The notes under the pieces are model-generated. The model was not told the DNA's origin and did no database searches. It saw only the letters and a program-made list of their open reading frames with translations. Made by a program: the position numbers and the translations under genes. Below, piece by piece: positions 1,943 through 26,278 of a DNA stretch of 28,797 nt (position 1 is its first letter; every line of letters starts with the position of its first letter). This stretch comes from a virus, in the IMG/VR virus record IMGVR_UViG_3300035034_001538, positions 1-28,797 of that record; one strand, given 5' to 3'.

Positions 1943-3136
1943 ATGGGCATGTTTGACTGGGCTCCGTTCACCGACAAGGTGATCGACAAGGGCTTCGGGA
2001 AGTCCCGAGACGGCTGGAAGATTGATGGCTGCGTACCACACCACGGAGCGGGTACGAACGTGCTCGGCTACGTGGCGAACTCCAACACTCGGAACTCACA
2101 CCCCACCTACCACATCGCGAACGACGGCACCCTCACTGGTATCGTCCACCCCTCTCGGCGACCGTTCTCGACGGCGCACGAGATCGACCGACAGTCGATC
2201 ACCGTCGAGATCGACAACTCTGGTGGTGCTCCGAACTGGCCGATCTCTGCGAAGGCTCAGGCCACGCTGGAACGACTGATTGCGTGGCAGGCTGCACAGA
2301 ACCCCACGCGGAAGCCCATTGCCAAGAACATTCCGGGCAAAAAGCAGTCGGAGTTCTTCGTCGGCTGGCACAGCCAGTACAAGGCGACGGCGTGTCCAGG
2401 TCCTTACGTCTTGGGACGGCTGAACACGATCATCGCCAACTCCAACAAGCTGAACGCTCCAGCACCTCCTCCCCCTGCACCGACACCTCCGGCTCCTCCG
2501 CGCATCCCGTGGCAGAACATCACTCCTGTCACGATGTATAACTGGGAGGAGGTCTTCGTCGTTGACCCACTCACGAAGACGACGAAGGGCTCTGTGGAGG
2601 CTGGTCAGGCTCTCGACATCGCGAGCTCAGTCATCATCGACAAGGTGCTCTACTACCGCACTGACTGGTCGACTCGTCAGGGCAACGACAGTGGCATCGA
2701 CGCCGGAGACCTGTACTTCCACCCGAAGCCTGCCCCAGAGCCCGAGCCAACGCCCGAGCCCGAGCCAACGCCGGACCCTGAACCACAACCAGAACCACAA
2801 CCAGAACCGGAGGAACCACCCGTGACAGTCCCCAGTCCGCCGCTCGTGAAGCCTGACGCTGCGGAGGTCGAGAGAGCACTCTCGACTCTCGGCAAAGAGT
2901 TCGGCGTCTTCATTCCGAAGGCTCTTCGCAAGAAGATCTATGTCCGTGTCAAGTACGGTTCCAGCCTGATCCTCGCACTGTCGGCCACTGGCCTGGCAGT
3001 CGCACCCGCAGTGGGTGGAGAGATCGGTGGTTGGATCGCCGTTGGATCAGCGATCGCCGGCATTGTCGGCACAGGCCTCGGCGCACTCGCCGCTCAGCTC
3101 GCGGATGCCAACACAGACACCAGTCTCGACGCCTAG
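1943..3136 (+). CDS. Endolysin: N-acetylmuramoyl-L-alanine amidase with holin-like membrane tail
   Basis: 397 aa. ATG 1943 is chosen because AAGGA (1931-1935) lies 7 nt upstream; the open frame continues to 1637 but overlaps the fibre gene. Residues ~1-160 form an Amidase_2/PGRP-type domain: VPHHGAGTN (His33/34), the HPTYHI and VEIDNSGG strands, and GWHSQYKATACPGP (His143, Cys151). The His/His/Cys set fits the zinc site that cuts the MurNAc-L-Ala bond of peptidoglycan. A Pro-rich linker (~162-178) leads to a small domain (~180-250) with YYRTDWSTRQG...GIDAGDL, probably cell-wall binding. An acidic Pro/Glu repeat linker follows (~251-294). The last ~100 residues carry two Gly/Ala-rich hydrophobic segments (~338-358 and ~360-387), unusual for an endolysin. 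An internal start may make this tail separately (see 2822-3136). It is transcribed from P1 and lyses the host. Confidence 0.85.
   Translation: MGMFDWAPFTDKVIDKGFGKSRDGWKIDGCVPHHGAGTNVLGYVANSNTRNSHPTYHIANDGTLTGIVHPSRRPFSTAHEIDRQSITVEIDNSGGAPNWPISAKAQATLERLIAWQAAQNPTRKPIAKNIPGKKQSEFFVGWHSQYKATACPGPYVLGRLNTIIANSNKLNAPAPPPPAPTPPAPPRIPWQNITPVTMYNWEEVFVVDPLTKTTKGSVEAGQALDIASSVIIDKVLYYRTDWSTRQGNDSGIDAGDLYFHPKPAPEPEPTPEPEPTPDPEPQPEPQPEPEEPPVTVPSPPLVKPDAAEVERALSTLGKEFGVFIPKALRKKIYVRVKYGSSLILALSATGLAVAPAVGGEIGGWIAVGSAIAGIVGTGLGALAAQLADANTDTSLDA
2822..3136 (+). CDS. Possible in-frame internal holin product of the endolysin gene
   Basis: Inside the endolysin frame, GGAGGA (2809-2814) is followed 7 nt later by GTG at 2822, in the same reading frame. 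Initiation there would give a 104-aa protein beginning MTVPSPPLVKPD. It has a short charged N-terminal region including a basic ALRKKIYVRVK stretch, then two hydrophobic Gly/Ala-rich segments and a short polar end. That size and layout fit small actinophage holins. The SD could be a by-product of Glu-Glu codons in the acidic linker, so independent translation is an inference. If it is real, one gene encodes both the soluble-domain enzyme and a pore former. The alternative is a single membrane-anchored endolysin. Confidence 0.4.
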   Translation: MTVPSPPLVKPDAAEVERALSTLGKEFGVFIPKALRKKIYVRVKYGSSLILALSATGLAVAPAVGGEIGGWIAVGSAIAGIVGTGLGALAAQLADANTDTSLDA

Positions 3137-3142
3137 GTTTGG

Positions 3143-3463
3143 GTGCCTGATATGCCGACTACACTCGAACACCCTGGTCCAGAACCTACAGGTTGGGAGC
3201 TGCTCCGAGCGATAGGTGGGCTTCGGAGTGACATCCACGAAATCTCAGAGAAGGTCGTACCCCTCGCCCTCTACACGGCAGAGAAGCACGCTCACGAAGA
3301 GCGGCAGAGTCGAGCAGAGGCTCGACTCAAGAACCTCGAGGGTGGACTCATTGAAGCTGAGAAGCTCCGTCGACAGCAGCGCCTGACCATCACTCTCGCG
3401 ATCGCGGCGCCCGTCGTCGCCTTCACTTTCACCCTACTCAGGGACTACTTCCCAGCAGGCTAA
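3143..3463 (+). CDS. Small membrane protein of the lysis cassette, holin-like
   Basis: 106 aa from GTG 3143; ATG 3152 (103 aa) is an equally possible start, as both have only weak G-rich upstream sites. The N-terminal ~75 residues are charged and helical, probably a coiled coil (heptad-like ISEKVVPLALYTAEKHAHEERQ, then RAEARLKNLEG). One hydrophobic segment follows at about residues 82-103 (LTITLAIAAPVVAFTFTLL), with only a few residues after it. It lies 6 nt after the endolysin stop, a usual place for a holin or holin partner. No conserved holin family signature is recognised, so a lysis role rests on topology and neighbours. It could instead be an antiholin or a virion membrane protein. Confidence 0.65.
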   Translation: MPDMPTTLEHPGPEPTGWELLRAIGGLRSDIHEISEKVVPLALYTAEKHAHEERQSRAEARLKNLEGGLIEAEKLRRQQRLTITLAIAAPVVAFTFTLLRDYFPAG

Positions 3464-3590: not shown

Positions 3591-4679
3591 GTGTCATTCT
3601 GGGATCTGAAAACACCTCGCTTGGGAGCCAGTAATTCCGCCCCCGCGAGGATCTCCTCAACCCCGCAGACCCCCCGGCCTGCGGCTGCGGACGAGACTCC
3701 TGACTTCCTGGAACAGATGGGTCAGGGTCTCGTCCGCAACGGTCTTGGAGGTCAGGAGCCTCCGAACCCCTTTGGCATGGCTGCCGTCTCAAACGAGCTC
3801 GACCGCTTCCAGAACGTCGAACAGGCAGAGCAGGAAGCTCAGCAGGCAAGAGTACAGCAGTACACAGACGCTCTCGGAAACACAGAGGGCACTCGTCGTC
3901 TCTCGTGGGACGAGTACAACGGATTGTCCCCGAGACAGCAGGCTGCGATCGATGCCAACACTGCTCTCTATGACGCGATCGTCGCAGACCAGCAAGCCCC
4001 CTCCACAGAGGAGCGGATCCCCGGCTACGACGACGCAGTCATGTCTCTGTTCGGAGAGAACGGCGGTAGTGAGACGTACGCGCCTCGGACGGTGGCACTG
4101 CTCAGCGAACTAGGGCTCGAGCAGCTCCCGAGTAGGAACCTTGATCAATTCCTCGGACTGAACGCTCTGCTCCGCGAGGAAGACCTCGACACCGTGAACC
4201 GGACAACCGGCGCCGGCACAGAGGGTGTGGCTGGACCCGTGGACGCTCGCGCTCAGCACGTCCTCAGCTTCAGCAACTCGTCCCTGGAGGCGATGAGTCG
4301 TGTCCTTGCTCAGGGTCAGACACTGCTCGATGCTGCTCGGACCAACTCCGGCGATGCAGGCACTCAGCTCTTTGGTGAGGCACCTACCAGTCTGACAGAT
4401 CAAGACCCTCAAAACAGATGGTTAAAAAATCTCTTTGAGAAGATGTCTCGCAGAGAGGGAGGGCTCTCCAGCGAGGAGCTCGGGGAAGTCATCTACGGCA
4501 TGGAGCAGGAATACCAGCTCTCTCAGCAGCAGATCTATGACTACCTCGAGGGCCGACTTCGAGCAACCACCTACGGGAACGCCGCCGGCGGTCCTGGAAC
4601 GATCTCGGGCTGGGCCGACGACGTTGACTATCTCACCCCGGAAGAGTTCCGGTCGCGCTACTACACTGGAGGTTCATAA
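3591..4679 (+). CDS. Unknown virion-block protein (362 aa), helical
   Basis: GTG start with GAGGAG (3578-3583) 7 nt upstream. I recognise no domain. Residues 1-40 are Pro/Ala/Ser-rich and probably disordered. Residues ~70-95 are a Gln/Glu/Ala-rich helix (ELDRFQNVEQAEQEAQQARVQQ). The rest is mostly helical and acidic, ending in a Gly/Tyr-rich tail. It stands first in a transcription unit behind P2 and overlaps the next gene by one base (TAATG). Position ahead of the tail adaptor and nozzle suggests an internal virion or ejection protein, but this is inference. It contains LGNTEGTRR at about residues 95-103, a motif shared with the 197-aa protein at 9677-10270. Confidence 0.75.
   Translation: MSFWDLKTPRLGASNSAPARISSTPQTPRPAAADETPDFLEQMGQGLVRNGLGGQEPPNPFGMAAVSNELDRFQNVEQAEQEAQQARVQQYTDALGNTEGTRRLSWDEYNGLSPRQQAAIDANTALYDAIVADQQAPSTEERIPGYDDAVMSLFGENGGSETYAPRTVALLSELGLEQLPSRNLDQFLGLNALLREEDLDTVNRTTGAGTEGVAGPVDARAQHVLSFSNSSLEAMSRVLAQGQTLLDAARTNSGDAGTQLFGEAPTSLTDQDPQNRWLKNLFEKMSRREGGLSSEELGEVIYGMEQEYQLSQQQIYDYLEGRLRATTYGNAAGGPGTISGWADDVDYLTPEEFRSRYYTGGS
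3873..3892 (+). repeat. 20-nt segment repeated in two virion-block genes
   Basis: This 20-nt stretch matches 9752-9771 at 19 of 20 positions, and both copies are read in the same frame as LGNTEGT followed by R/K-R. The two host genes are otherwise unrelated by eye. Confidence 0.6.
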
Positions 4680-5707
4680 TGGTAGGACTACTCGGCGGTG
4701 GGGGGATCCTCAAGGATGGCCCTGGGTTGACCACGCAAAAGCCGCCGATGACTGCGGCACAGCTCTCGCAGATGATGCGAGGTCTGATGGGCGGAGGCAC
4801 TACCTCGGGCTCCCCCGGACTGTTGCGTCCCGGCGACGGCAGCCCCGAGACTCTCCCTGACGGGACACCTCCGGGCGACGGCCCCCCGGCGCCGGACCCG
4901 ATGGCAGCGGTGAACGCTGCAGGTCGAGCCTCTGCTCAAAGGCAGAACGAGAACACGCGAGCCCTCGTTGACGGTCAGTACAAGCTGTTGGACAGCTTCG
5001 GAAAGCAGCGAGACACCAAGCTCACGAACATCGAAGCTACCCTGAAGCAGGGCCGAGAGCTCCTGCTCGGCAACTACAAGGTTGCTCTTGGGGGACTCGA
5101 GAGTACAGGTGACGACAACGATAAGGCCCAGGCAGACCTGAGCTTCTCGAACATCGCGAACGCAACCCGTGAGCGTTCTGACCTTCTCAGTCAGGTTGCG
5201 AGCCAGGGTGCCGGCGAGACAGACCTCATGCGAGCCACCATGCAGTCTCTTCGTAACTATGCGGACAATGAGAATCAGGGCAGCAGAGCCTTCTTCGACA
5301 CGCTGCGTAGCGTCAACAACGCGATCGGCTCGTTGAACAACGACACTTCCACTGGTAAGGCAAACCTGTGGCAGCAGGCAGAGTCAGACAAAGAGTCTGC
5401 ATACTCGAACTACTGGAACCAGCTGTCAGACACCTGGACTCAGATCATGAACATCGAGAACTCGAACACTAACGTGAACTCTGCTAGCAGCGTCGGATAC
5501 GACGCAAAGTACAAGAACGCAGGTGACGAGGCGGCAAACGCTGCAGCGCAGTCCTACGCGAAGCAGATGCTGCCGAGCAACTACCTCGACTGGGCAGGGA
5601 AGGGTGAGCAGAAGGAGCGAACCCTCACCAGTACCAACCGTGCAGCCACCGTGAATCTTGGTGGCAAGCAGAAGAGGCCTGAGGGCGCGACACTGAGGAA
5701 GTGGTAG
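4679..5707 (+). CDS. Unknown virion-block protein (342 aa), long helical; internal virion protein candidate
   Basis: ATG 4679 overlaps the preceding TAA (TAATG), and GGAGG (4668-4672) serves as SD. Residues 1-75 are Gly/Pro-rich and flexible (GLLGGGGILKDGPG, DGTPPGDGPPAPD). From ~80 to ~270 the protein is rich in Ala, Gln, Asn, Glu, Lys and Leu with few aromatics, as in long helical bundles; examples are ASAQRQNENTRALVDGQY and LRNYADNENQGSRAF. The C-terminus is basic (GGKQKRPEGATLRKW). No family is recognised. Composition and position before the tail adaptor resemble internal core proteins that short-tailed phages eject into the cell, but this is inference only. Confidence 0.75.
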   Translation: MVGLLGGGGILKDGPGLTTQKPPMTAAQLSQMMRGLMGGGTTSGSPGLLRPGDGSPETLPDGTPPGDGPPAPDPMAAVNAAGRASAQRQNENTRALVDGQYKLLDSFGKQRDTKLTNIEATLKQGRELLLGNYKVALGGLESTGDDNDKAQADLSFSNIANATRERSDLLSQVASQGAGETDLMRATMQSLRNYADNENQGSRAFFDTLRSVNNAIGSLNNDTSTGKANLWQQAESDKESAYSNYWNQLSDTWTQIMNIENSNTNVNSASSVGYDAKYKNAGDEAANAAAQSYAKQMLPSNYLDWAGKGEQKERTLTSTNRAATVNLGGKQKRPEGATLRKW

Positions 5708-11372: not shown

Positions 11373-11491
11373 TGAGTGACGTAGCGATGGGTGTGGCGGG
11401 CATCATTGTGTTCGTCGCACTCGTCGCTGCTGTCATTTGGATAGCCGCTGACTACCACGACAAACATCCTACAGACTGGTTCTTCCACTGA
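11372..11491 (+). CDS. 39-aa single-span membrane protein
   Basis: ATG 11372 overlaps the stop of the 369-aa gene (TGATG), and its own TGA (11489-11491) overlaps the ATG of terminase in the same way. The product MSDVAMGVAGIIVFVALVAA continues with VIWIAADYHDK and ends in HPTDWFFH. Residues ~7-27 are one hydrophobic transmembrane helix; the C-terminus is short, aromatic and polar. Being held between two stop-start overlaps argues that it is translated by coupling. The function is unknown; small membrane proteins next to terminase sometimes act in lysis or DNA injection, but nothing here decides this. Confidence 0.6.
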   Translation: MSDVAMGVAGIIVFVALVAAVIWIAADYHDKHPTDWFFH

Positions 11492-12957
11492 TGCCTCGCT
11501 TCCCGGCCTTCTACCGGCCACGCCCGTACCAGGCCGAGCTCCACCAGATGTGGCGCACTCACCGTATCGGGGTGGCTGTGTACCCGCGCCAGTCTGGCAA
11601 GGACGTGGCTATGAGCATGGAGATGGTTGAGGGTCGTCTCAGAGAACCGAAGACCACTGGTGCCTACGTCTCACTGAACAACCCCATGATCCGAGACATC
11701 CTGTGGGACAAGACGTACCTCGACCAAGAGTCGGGGCAGTACGTCCAGATGCTGCAGGACAACGTTCCCAAAGAGCTCGCGGAGTGGAAGAGCACCATCA
11801 TGGAGGGGCGGTTCACGAACAAGAGCCGCATGAAGCTGCAAGGCTACTTCCAGAGTGGGCAGGACAAGAACGGTGTCGGTACGTCGTTCCAGGACTACGC
11901 GTTCACTGAGCTCGCTCTGTTCCAGCGGGAGGACCCCATCCCCCGACTGATGCCCATCATCATGGGTGAGCACGAGAAGAAGCGACTCATGGTCGCGAGT
12001 ACTCCTCGTGGGAAGCGGCGCAACAGCCTGTGGCAGCTGATGGAGTCGATGAAGGGCGATCCCCAGTATCAGGTGATCATCCGTGACATCGACGACTTGA
12101 ACACGATGATGACCCGCGAGGGACTGCCGGCTGTCATGACTCCTGGACAGCTCGAGAAGGTCCGAGAGAGCTACCTCCGCCGCTTCGGCAACGATCGCAT
12201 GTTCCTGCAGGAGTACTATGTCTCCTTCGAGGAGATGGACGCTGCAGCAGTGTATGGCGAGGCGTTCATGAAGCTCGTCGCGGAGCACCGCAACATTGAC
12301 TTCAACCTGGATACCGGCCACCTTGTCTACGTAGCCTTCGACATCGGCGCTTCCGGGATGCACTCTGACGCGACAGCGTGGATCGCGTTTCAGTGGATCA
12401 ACGGCCGAGTGTTTCTCTATGACTGTGGAGAGGGTCACGGTAAGGCACTCCCCGAGTACGTGGACGTGCTCAGGGAGAAGCCGTGGTTCAACAAGCTGGC
12501 GCTGATCATCCTGCCGTGGGACGGTGACCACCACGAGAAGGCGGTGAACACGACGCCGGCAGACATGATGCGGACGAAGTTCCCTAATGTGTCCGTCCTG
12601 GCGAAGAGCAACAAGGTCTACAAGATCCCTGGCTCACGGCAGGGTGACTACGACATGATCACGGACATCCAGCAGGTGAGGCTCGCACTCTACAACACGA
12701 TCATCCACGCGACAAACTGCGACTGGATGCTCGAGTGCATGGAGAACTACAAGTACGAGTTCAACAACAAGCTGCAGGAGTGGAGCGGGAAGCCGCTGCA
12801 CGACAAGTACTCGCACATGATGGATGCGCTGCGCTACGTGATTCAGTCCACCAAGGAGCTTGACTTCTTCGGTGGGAACATGTTCGACTCCACTGGTTCC
12901 GGGTCTAACAGAGTGTCGAACTACACAGAGGACTGGACAGGAGTGTGGAGGCGGTAA
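11491..12957 (+). CDS. terL: Terminase large subunit (DNA-packaging ATPase/nuclease)
   Basis: 488 aa, near the family's usual length, ATG coupled to the upstream stop. ATPase domain: RPYQ (Gln14) adenine motif, Walker A YPRQSGKD (31-38), acidic motif near DYAFTE (135-140), and coupling motif VASTPRGK (168-175). RNase H-like nuclease domain: AFDIGASG with Asp284, LPWDGD with Asp344/346, and HDKYSHMMDALRY with Asp445, giving the expected three-acid site. The enzyme cuts concatemeric DNA and pumps it into the prohead, docking on the portal, which must lie outside the window. It follows the tail genes, broadly as in T7-like phages where TerL is a late gene near the end of the structural block. 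One base overlaps the next gene (TAATG). Confidence 0.95.
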   Translation: MPRFPAFYRPRPYQAELHQMWRTHRIGVAVYPRQSGKDVAMSMEMVEGRLREPKTTGAYVSLNNPMIRDILWDKTYLDQESGQYVQMLQDNVPKELAEWKSTIMEGRFTNKSRMKLQGYFQSGQDKNGVGTSFQDYAFTELALFQREDPIPRLMPIIMGEHEKKRLMVASTPRGKRRNSLWQLMESMKGDPQYQVIIRDIDDLNTMMTREGLPAVMTPGQLEKVRESYLRRFGNDRMFLQEYYVSFEEMDAAAVYGEAFMKLVAEHRNIDFNLDTGHLVYVAFDIGASGMHSDATAWIAFQWINGRVFLYDCGEGHGKALPEYVDVLREKPWFNKLALIILPWDGDHHEKAVNTTPADMMRTKFPNVSVLAKSNKVYKIPGSRQGDYDMITDIQQVRLALYNTIIHATNCDWMLECMENYKYEFNNKLQEWSGKPLHDKYSHMMDALRYVIQSTKELDFFGGNMFDSTGSGSNRVSNYTEDWTGVWRR

Positions 12958-23979: not shown

Positions 23980-24930
23980 CTAGTCGATCAGGCCGTATCG
24001 CGTGCTCGCGATGAGCAGCGGCTTGATCTCCTCGGCGAGACGACCCACGCATTCTGCGAGGAATGTCGGGCGGTTTACGAGGCTGATGTCCAGCAACTGC
24101 TCGATGGAACCCGAGCACTTGCCGATGACATCTCCCGCGCTCCAGCTCGAGTCGTAGTCGGCGATCGTGATGACCGTGCCCCAACTACGGTCCTCGAACA
24201 GAGGCGCGAGCGTCTCGTAGTGCGTGCCTCCGAACTCCGCAAGGCGGAGGACGTCGTCGACACTATACGAGCCCGGCTCCCAGTAGAAGGCGTTGCTGCT
24301 GACGATTGCCAGGTGAGCGTCGGCCTTCCAGCTCAGAGCCACGACATCCTCGATGATCGTGTGGATCGTCTCGGAGGTCATGGACCCTGAGACATCCAGG
24401 ATCACGAGGTTGTTTGCCATCGGAGGGTGCTTGATCGACGGGTTGAACTGTCCCAGCGTGGGGCGCTGCTTGTTGAGCTTCGCCATGTGCGTGAACGTCA
24501 TCCTCCCCTCTTTAGAGGGAAGTCGATCGAGCGTCCCTGCCAGCTTGGCAGCGACCTCCTTCAGGCTGCTCGCGACCTGAAGCTCAGCTGCCTCCCAGAG
24601 TGCGGGGAGAATCTCCCCCTGAGGAGGCGGAGCGTTGTCGTCGAAGTTCAACGACTTGCCCTCCGGCAACAGGTGGTCGGGCACGGTCTCGACGATGTAG
24701 CTCTGCAGCGAGGTACTGTGTGTACCCTCGCTGAGAGCACGGACCACGTCCGAGTCGAACAAGCCGTAGATCAGCGAGCTCAATCGCTCGTAATTTAGGT
24801 CGTACGCCTTGGCGAAGAACAGTGCTGTCTCGACATCGGGCAGGAGCTTCTTCAGACTGTTCCAGGTTGCCTTGCGACCCGGACCAATCTCAAAGAGACT
24901 CAGTGACTTCTGGATCTCGTCATGCTTCAT
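23980..24930 (-). CDS. VWA-domain protein, partner of the MoxR-like ATPase
   Basis: 316 aa; ATG 24930 with AAGGAGGACACCGCAG upstream, overlapping the ATPase stop by 11 bp. The N-terminal ~160 residues are helical and charged with an acidic patch (GKSLNFDDNAPPPQG). The C-terminal half is a von Willebrand A domain: LVILDVSGSM (MIDAS Asp179-x-Ser181-x-Ser183), FGGTHYETL with Thr236, and ITIADYDSSW with Asp258. All MIDAS metal ligands appear intact. MoxR/VWA pairs act together as chaperone-like machines that load cofactors or remodel complexes. The CobS/CobT type and NorQ/NorD type are alternatives I cannot separate. Its target in the phage is unknown. Confidence 0.85.
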   Translation of the reverse strand: MKHDEIQKSLSLFEIGPGRKATWNSLKKLLPDVETALFFAKAYDLNYERLSSLIYGLFDSDVVRALSEGTHSTSLQSYIVETVPDHLLPEGKSLNFDDNAPPPQGEILPALWEAAELQVASSLKEVAAKLAGTLDRLPSKEGRMTFTHMAKLNKQRPTLGQFNPSIKHPPMANNLVILDVSGSMTSETIHTIIEDVVALSWKADAHLAIVSSNAFYWEPGSYSVDDVLRLAEFGGTHYETLAPLFEDRSWGTVITIADYDSSWSAGDVIGKCSGSIEQLLDISLVNRPTFLAECVGRLAEEIKPLLIASTRYGLID

Positions 24931-26278
24931 CTGCGGTGTCCTCCTTCTTGGACTCCTTGGTTGCTACTTCCATCTCGATGAGTTGGAGGTTGAGATCCAG
25001 GTTGATGCGCTGGACCTCTGTGAGTCGTGGATTTCCCACGAGACGCTGTGCATCCGCTTGGTACTGCGGAGGTAGCGACTTGTTGCCTGTCATGAGCAAG
25101 ACGTACTGCGCCTTGCCCTGCTGCATCGCCATCAGGTTGTTGATGGCAATGACTTCGGACAGAGCTTTGGACTGGACCTCGCGGAGCTTGGCCTGACCAA
25201 TGAGCTTACGAGCAGACTGTCCCCGGACAGAGGCAGTGGCTCCGATGTTGGCGCCGGAGCCGTGCTTGAACTGATCGAGCATGTCGTAGGTCGGATCGAT
25301 CTCTGTTGCGATCAAGGCTTCCATCTCTGGAATCTTGGCCGTCTCAGTCATGAGCCCGAGCTCGCTGACGATCAGGTCTTTCAGGTCCTGACGCGCTCGC
25401 TTGCTCGATCGGATGTCTGTGACAGGCATGTGGAGCAGCCTGTCGTCGAGTGCCTTGTCGTAGGTCGTGACCGAGTTGGACGCGGCTACGAAGAACACCT
25501 TGGGAAGGTTGAAGCCTGCAACGTGCCGGCTCGTCATGATGTCAAGCAGACCGTTGTAGACCTCGGGGAACCCTCGCAGGAACTCATCGAAGAGGACGAT
25601 ATCCCCTTCTTCGAGTGACTGCCAGAGAGTACTGGTCAGCATGTGCAGTCGATAGTCTCCGTCAGCGTGGTTACCCACGGGCATCTGAACACCCTCGAGT
25701 TCGAGGACGTTGATGCGAGAGACGTTGACGACGTGCAGCCGCTTTCCAGTGAGGTGAGCGAGTTGTTCCACGCTCAGGCTCTTGCCCACGCCGGGAGGAC
25801 CGACGAGGTGTGGCATGGGGCTACGCACGTCCTGAGCCATGTAGGTCGTGTACAGCCTGATGAGCTTGTCCAGCAAAGTTCTACCCCCTTCTAGGGCTAT
25901 GAGACCGTTGTCATTCCTGTCCCTGCGGATGTACTTGTCTGCGAGCTTATCGTAGATGTAGTGGCAGTTCACGAGCGACTGACCCGTGTACGGGTCTCGA
26001 TTAGCGATGAGTGCTTCTAGGTGCCGCAGCCTCAAGGTGTTTACAGCAACGAGATCCTCCTTGTAGATTACAGGAGGATACGAGTGGTCGTAGGTGTCTC
26101 CTGTTCTCTGATGGGAAGGAATGTAGTTGTTGATGTTGAAGCTGATGTTAGCAACGTTAGTTTTTACCCGCTTGCTAGCAGCAACGTTTGCCAGAGTACT
26201 AGGACGGTAGACCTGACTCTGAAGCTCATCTAGCCGGTTCTGAAGATAGACAGTAGCGTCTTCGTCGTTGGAACCCAT
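24920..26278 (-). CDS. MoxR/CobS-type AAA+ ATPase
   Basis: 452 aa; ATG 26278 with GGAGGG ~10 nt upstream. Residues 1-150 include a Ser/Asn-rich basic start and a helical region (TLRLRHLEALIANRDPYTG). The AAA+ core has Walker A LVGPPGVGKSL (158-168), Walker B IVLFDEF (227-233), sensor 1 AASN (265-268) and an arginine-finger candidate DDRLLHMPV (278-286). A Gly/Met-rich helical tail of ~150 residues (LIGQAKLREVQSKALSEVIAIN) follows. The order Walker A, then LELEGVQMP, then DEFLRGFPEVYNGLLDIM is typical of the MoxR/CobS group. It is paired with the VWA gene directly downstream, and so likely forms one machine with it. The length exceeds usual MoxR proteins (~320 aa) because of the N-terminal extension and C-terminal tail. 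Confidence 0.85.
   Translation of the reverse strand: MGSNDEDATVYLQNRLDELQSQVYRPSTLANVAASKRVKTNVANISFNINNYIPSHQRTGDTYDHSYPPVIYKEDLVAVNTLRLRHLEALIANRDPYTGQSLVNCHYIYDKLADKYIRRDRNDNGLIALEGGRTLLDKLIRLYTTYMAQDVRSPMPHLVGPPGVGKSLSVEQLAHLTGKRLHVVNVSRINVLELEGVQMPVGNHADGDYRLHMLTSTLWQSLEEGDIVLFDEFLRGFPEVYNGLLDIMTSRHVAGFNLPKVFFVAASNSVTTYDKALDDRLLHMPVTDIRSSKRARQDLKDLIVSELGLMTETAKIPEMEALIATEIDPTYDMLDQFKHGSGANIGATASVRGQSARKLIGQAKLREVQSKALSEVIAINNLMAMQQGKAQYVLLMTGNKSLPPQYQADAQRLVGNPRLTEVQRINLDLNLQLIEMEVATKESKKEDTADEA

Follow-up and report, generated by a model that had tools for sequence, protein, structure and literature searches.

The window analysed here, the whole 28,797 bases of an IMG/VR virus record from an uncultured relative of Microbacterium phages, carries a gene of 397 aa in which an amidase-type endolysin and two predicted membrane spans share one reading frame. 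Judged from its sequence, this gene is best read as an endolysin-holin gene fusion of which the holin part is predicted. We assign a rough probability of 0.55 to the fused gene being read two ways, giving a 397-aa amidase that ends in a membrane hairpin as well as a free 104-aa two-span holin-like protein that would start at an internal GTG. This reading is supported because relatives keep their membrane genes separate, because the window is without another two-span gene, and because the start-like site inside the endolysin gene is exceptional. The features concerned are as follows.

1943..3136, + strand: fused endolysin-membrane protein gene, 397 aa, ATG start, Shine-Dalgarno (SD) AAAGGA at 1930-1935
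2003..2497, + strand: amidase catalytic domain, residues 21-185 (PHROG 7698, E 1.8e-20)
2714..2821, + strand: Pro/Glu/Gln-rich linker with two tandem repeats (2738-2772 and 2780-2808)
2809..2814, + strand: internal SD GGAGGA (pairing -9.5 kcal/mol)
2816..2902, + strand: linker/helix segment, residues 292-320, matching the end of the L112 lysin (14/29 identities, local-shuffle p 0.0015)
2822..3136, + strand: proposed internal ORF, GTG start, 104 aa, predicted two-span holin-like product, put forward on start-site scores
2915..2953, + strand: basic patch PKALRKKIYVRVK, residues 325-337
2957..3013, + strand: hydrophobic span 1, residues 339-357 (KD mean 1.68)
3023..3091, + strand: hydrophobic span 2, residues 361-383 (361-379 extending to 383, KD mean 1.62-1.84)
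3152..3463, + strand: one-span protein, 103 aa, candidate second lysis membrane protein, with a predicted coiled-coil-like charged N-terminal part

For the terminase of the window (11491-12957), identity was 60-76% to the terminases of an Arthrobacter phage and of Microbacterium phages from the Burrovirus, Akonivirus and Tinytimothyvirus groups, and reached 81% for uncultured contigs. The Microbacterium phages of these three groups also share with the window the order of genes at the lysis locus. The lysis cassette of this group lies between the tail-fibre gene and a homologue of the gene at 3591-4679, with the lysin and membrane genes of relatives just upstream of that homologue, and the endolysin gene of the window occupies the same interval. 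A typical cassette of the group holds a lysin, a one-span protein and at least one small protein with two to four spans, all as separate genes, whereas in the window no separate two-span gene is found between the lysin and 3591. The first-pass annotation had raised the possibility that relatives carry the amidase and membrane genes apart, and this was borne out, the small membrane proteins being separate genes in the readable cassettes.

Across the cassettes of relatives L084-L126, lysin types and membrane proteins are freely swapped between otherwise syntenic genomes. Elsewhere in the window, the minus strand at 23980-26278 carries a phage-borne MoxR-vWA-like pair, in which a MoxR-type AAA ATPase (24920-26278; Pfam AAA_5 and a weak bpMoxR match) adjoins a protein (23980-24930) with a vWA-like DVSGSM motif.

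The long product is read in frame 0, set by the ATG at 1943, and its stop codon lies at 3134-3136. Residues 21-185 matched the PHROG 7698 endolysin family in a profile search, and a Pfam search of the endolysin gave no match. Across eight lysins, H33, H34, H143, T149 and C151 were invariant and the TACPG motif was aligned too; the zinc-site His/His/Cys residues are intact, consistent with a PGRP/Amidase_2-type enzyme. In its catalytic part, the protein shares 41% identity with lysin A of Microbacterium phage Schubert, the only lysin returned by the search for the same catalytic domain; closer relatives of the neighbouring gene were sought as well, and none were returned. Solved structures searched by sequence gave one spurious match only, and the AlphaFold2 model of the fused protein (mean pLDDT 44) was not used for fold comparison.

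After the amidase, the chain runs through a middle stretch, the Pro/Glu linker, a helix, the basic patch and the two hydrophobic spans, with patch and spans lying within the last ~75 residues. Both spans are rich in Ala, Gly and Ser and only moderately hydrophobic. A set of 33 lysins was compared, made up of that of the window, those of relatives and those of other phages with the same amidase. A hydrophobic C-terminal half was seen in the window's lysin only (maximum KD mean 1.84 vs ≤ 1.15 in the others), so that the earlier remark that endolysins rarely end in such segments held for the 32 other lysins. The first-pass annotation had also described two hydrophobic segments with a basic N-terminal patch. 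Both spans and the patch are present, but the patch, standing directly before span 1, is about half-way along the 104-aa product and not N-terminal in it.

If made, the 104-aa product would be small, with two spans, a short loop and charged ends, which is the predicted layout of a two-span holin. Homologues of this 104-aa tail were found neither in viral contigs, genome contigs or the phage collection nor by tblastn; Pfam, PHROG and NCBIfam searches, with E values of up to 10 admitted, yielded no convincing or significant match, and no sequence relationship to a known holin family was seen. Pairwise shuffle tests against 25 small membrane proteins gave best p values of 0.007 (L105) and 0.013 (L112), which were not significant after correction, and homology to these proteins is therefore not claimed. 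By position and topology, the tail is the counterpart of the separate two-span gene of relatives, and we infer that it is a holin. The earlier proposal of a long amidase plus a separate 104-aa holin thus stands as regards the two-span tail and the outstanding start-like site, and falls short as regards homology to known holins.

The point of fusion was located by a three-way alignment, in which the C-termini of the L112 and L135 lysins, both from relatives (PPVTPPPPAPVGPDADQVQVFLDWLKDSFTKRASS and PPPVAVPPVVDTDTLDEFFDWLKQEFKDRNK, respectively), match the proline-rich linker and helix of the window (residues 292-320) and then stop. The match to L112 is gapless, with p 0.002 for the helix alone. 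A separate two-span gene begins 36 nt downstream of the L112 lysin stop, and its product shows 80-82% identity to Arthrobacter phage membrane proteins and weak, distant similarity to annotated holins; the lysin stop of L135 overlaps with a one-span gene as GTGA. Because both lysin ends match residues 292-320 and then terminate, the endolysin's own C-terminus appears to extend to residue ~320, with the join, and the added membrane part, beyond it. The proposed 104-aa product would therefore begin inside the lysin linker. The notion of a holin simply inserted at the GTG was not upheld, since the first ~27 residues of the 104-aa unit match endolysin linker and helix in L112 and L135. The L126 lysin (4580-5578) has a very long EP-repeat linker and an amphipathic C-terminal helix (NWFLQLIQAIIKALTDWFTSNKKEK) and, taken with L112 and L135, suggests that C-terminal amphipathic helices recur in lysins of this group.

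The repeat units of the linker measure 6, 12 and 18 nt, and the coding signal of frame 0 is present upstream as well as downstream of the repeats. The second repeat, directly before the internal SD, is a 12-nt tandem repeat that uses codons rare in this phage (GAA, CCA and CAA) and is unfolded; the neighbouring 18-nt repeat encodes the same kind of protein sequence with GAG and CCC codons. An open frame +1 runs from about 2454 to a TGA (2823-2825) that overlaps the GTG as GTGA, the layout of adjacent coupled genes.

The arrangement of GGAGGA, 7 nt and GTG in the endolysin frame, on which the first-pass annotation had rested, was confirmed: a spacer ACCACCC (2815-2821) separates the SD from the GTG (2822-2824), which is in frame with the ATG at 1943. 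The GTG is placed between the amidase and the spans, outside conserved domains, and shares the stop of the long form. Pairing of the internal SD exceeds that of 15 of the 24 called starts in the window and is equalled by 8 of 358 in-frame internal NTG codons. An equally strong SD arose from synonymous recoding in 9% of trials at this codon, in 13% within residues 256-335 and in 56% within residues 181-335. On account of these internal codons and of the recoding frequency at and near the site (p about 0.09-0.13), the SD alone is weak evidence and was rejected as an argument for a start.

The local minimum free energy of the site (-35..+20) is -4.7 kcal/mol, a value matched by 4 of the 358 internal NTG codons and by none of the 24 called starts, and this openness had p = 0.015 under the synonymous-recoding null. 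SD pairing and folding were then merged into a combined score, obtained by subtracting local folding from SD pairing. This simple substitute for a full model of initiation was devised after the site had been seen, and by it the site (-4.8) ranked first among the 358 internal codons and ahead of all 24 called starts. Recodings reached this score at the same codon in 0 of 2000 cases and anywhere in residues 171-345 in 33 of 2000 (1.7%). Six annotated relatives provided 1,103 internal NTG codons, none of which reached the score under four window settings, and 105 annotated starts, 1-12% of which did; among the 33 lysins, the next best internal site scored -0.5. The GTG at 2822 is the best start-like site found and is probably used, on this scoring, to yield a free holin-like 104-aa product as well.

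Several points bear on how far the site can be read as a start. Its openness stems from one short tandem repeat, which could have spread for other reasons. The GTG and SD, whose conservation in homologues had been named as a check, are absent from the matching linker of L112 and L135, so that conservation gives the start no support; the other lysins compared, none of which has this tail, likewise have no comparable site. In-frame internal starts in other endolysin genes have been established by experiment, and internal starts are predicted in about half of the endolysins of phages that infect Gram-positive hosts, compared with 15% of the portal genes taken as controls (PMC9430671); prediction of a site is thus no proof by itself.

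The one-span protein at 3152-3463 has relatives that adjoin lysin A in Appavirus phages (31% identity, E 9e-5; Pickles13, Warren and Appa) and may be a holin or second holin. In mycobacteriophage Girr, a one-span protein without a two-span partner supports lysis (PMC13056207), so a separate two-span holin is not forced on the window. The gene might accordingly make the long form only, as an endolysin with a C-terminal two-helix anchor, with the one-span protein as holin and the SD and GTG as by-products of the Pro/Glu linker. Such a design is real in Enc34 and M4Lys, where the membrane part is needed for lysis (PMC8943055, PMC7143992); the GTG is a valine codon in a linker common to L112 and L135, both without the start, and the frequency of equally strong SDs among recodings points the same way. 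However, the site ranks first among the 358 and 1,103 internal codons once openness is counted, and it stands directly before the sole membrane tail among the lysins compared, and we regard this explanation as rather unlikely. It is less probable still, and in our view quite doubtful, that the internal start is used to make an antiholin-like regulator or a partner subunit of the long form while the lesion is the work of the one-span protein. Complexes are common among two-polypeptide endolysins (PMC9430671), and of the two Girr proteins the one-span one matters more as a holin, its two-span partner tuning the timing (PMC13056207); the known short products, however, are soluble lysin or wall-binding pieces, whereas the one predicted here is a membrane hairpin at a place occupied in relatives by small membrane genes.

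An assembly or sequencing error could also have produced the fusion, in which case the lysin would really stop and the two-span gene would be separate, possibly starting from the GTG at 2822. The record is a single uncultured one, its linker contains two tandem repeats, and the overlap of the frame +1 stop with the GTG would be ordinary for adjacent genes. Frame 0 nevertheless keeps its coding signal before and after the repeats, and downstream of the GTG residues 292-320 match the lysin ends of relatives in frame 0, as would not result from an error before the GTG; gain or loss of repeat units of the sizes found keeps the frame. We consider an error of this kind highly improbable. A sequencing frameshift, suggested by the frame +1 TGA at the GTG, was likewise judged unlikely in view of the coding signal and of how L112 and L135 align.

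Under the preferred reading, in which the fused gene gives two products, an endolysin gene and a neighbouring two-span membrane gene would have become one reading frame. Translation from the ATG at 1943 would give the 397-aa amidase with its membrane hairpin, and translation from the GTG at 2822, by way of GGAGGA in an unfolded stretch, the 104-aa two-span protein. By the positive-inside rule, the basic patch predicts that both ends of the hairpin lie inside the cell (N-in, C-in), so that the amidase of the long form would face the cytoplasm and act only after membrane failure. This is also the topology of the two-span LysF1a of mycobacteriophages (PMC13056207). The simple tethered design of enzyme plus pore put forward earlier has to be amended accordingly, since a later membrane event is needed. 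The free short form would make the membrane lesion late in infection, and the long form, its amidase on the cytoplasmic face, would join the membrane clusters of the short form and gain access to the wall at membrane failure. The long form may in addition delay the lesion and thereby serve as a timer. A more specific version, in which free holin and amidase-holin chimera co-assemble, lysis is timed by the ratio of the two starts and the enzyme is brought along to the rim of its own lesion, is offered tentatively and seems to us on the unlikely side.

Should the short product be made, one gene and one message would link enzyme and pore, and altering the internal start alone would separate their functions. 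Separate lysis genes could then fuse and still give a free membrane protein. To our knowledge, proof is lacking for most actinophage holins, and little is understood of how actinophages time lysis.

Known systems share parts of this arrangement. A described case of an in-frame internal start that releases a membrane protein from an endolysin gene was not found in the open-access papers that were searched. In Staphylococcus phage 187, a holin reading frame reportedly lies inside the ply187 endolysin gene, as proposed for the window; there it is in another frame, here in frame and fused. In gene layout, the window resembles Ms6 lysA (Lysin384/Lysin241) and other two-polypeptide endolysins, which also have a strong SD and GTG inside the endolysin gene, in frame and with a shared stop (PMC3111421, PMC9430671). 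The Ms6 start, TGGAGGT, 6 nt and GTG, is experimentally established (PMC3111421). The short product of these genes is a shorter lysin or wall-binding subunit, whereas that of the window is a predicted two-span membrane protein.

As regards the membrane part, the endolysins Enc34 ORF39, M4Lys and Siskin combine an N-terminal enzyme with a C-terminal two-helix membrane domain, as predicted in the window (PMC8943055, PMC7143992, PMC6498227). Their catalytic family is PHA02564, whereas the window's amidase belongs to PHROG 7698; they come from phages of Gram-negative hosts, keep a separate holin candidate and, in the accessible portions of these reports, are noted with no internal start. The Clostridium sporogenes TpeE-family fusion likewise has holin and endolysin in one chain; unlike in the window, the holin comes first and has one short span, and the accessible portion of the report describes no internal start (PMC9527704). 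Gordonia phage EpicDab resembles the window in having no free holin gene and a holin-like two-span hairpin fused to another protein, but there the hairpin is N-terminal and fused to the capsid protein, with release by a protease proposed (PMC9671378).
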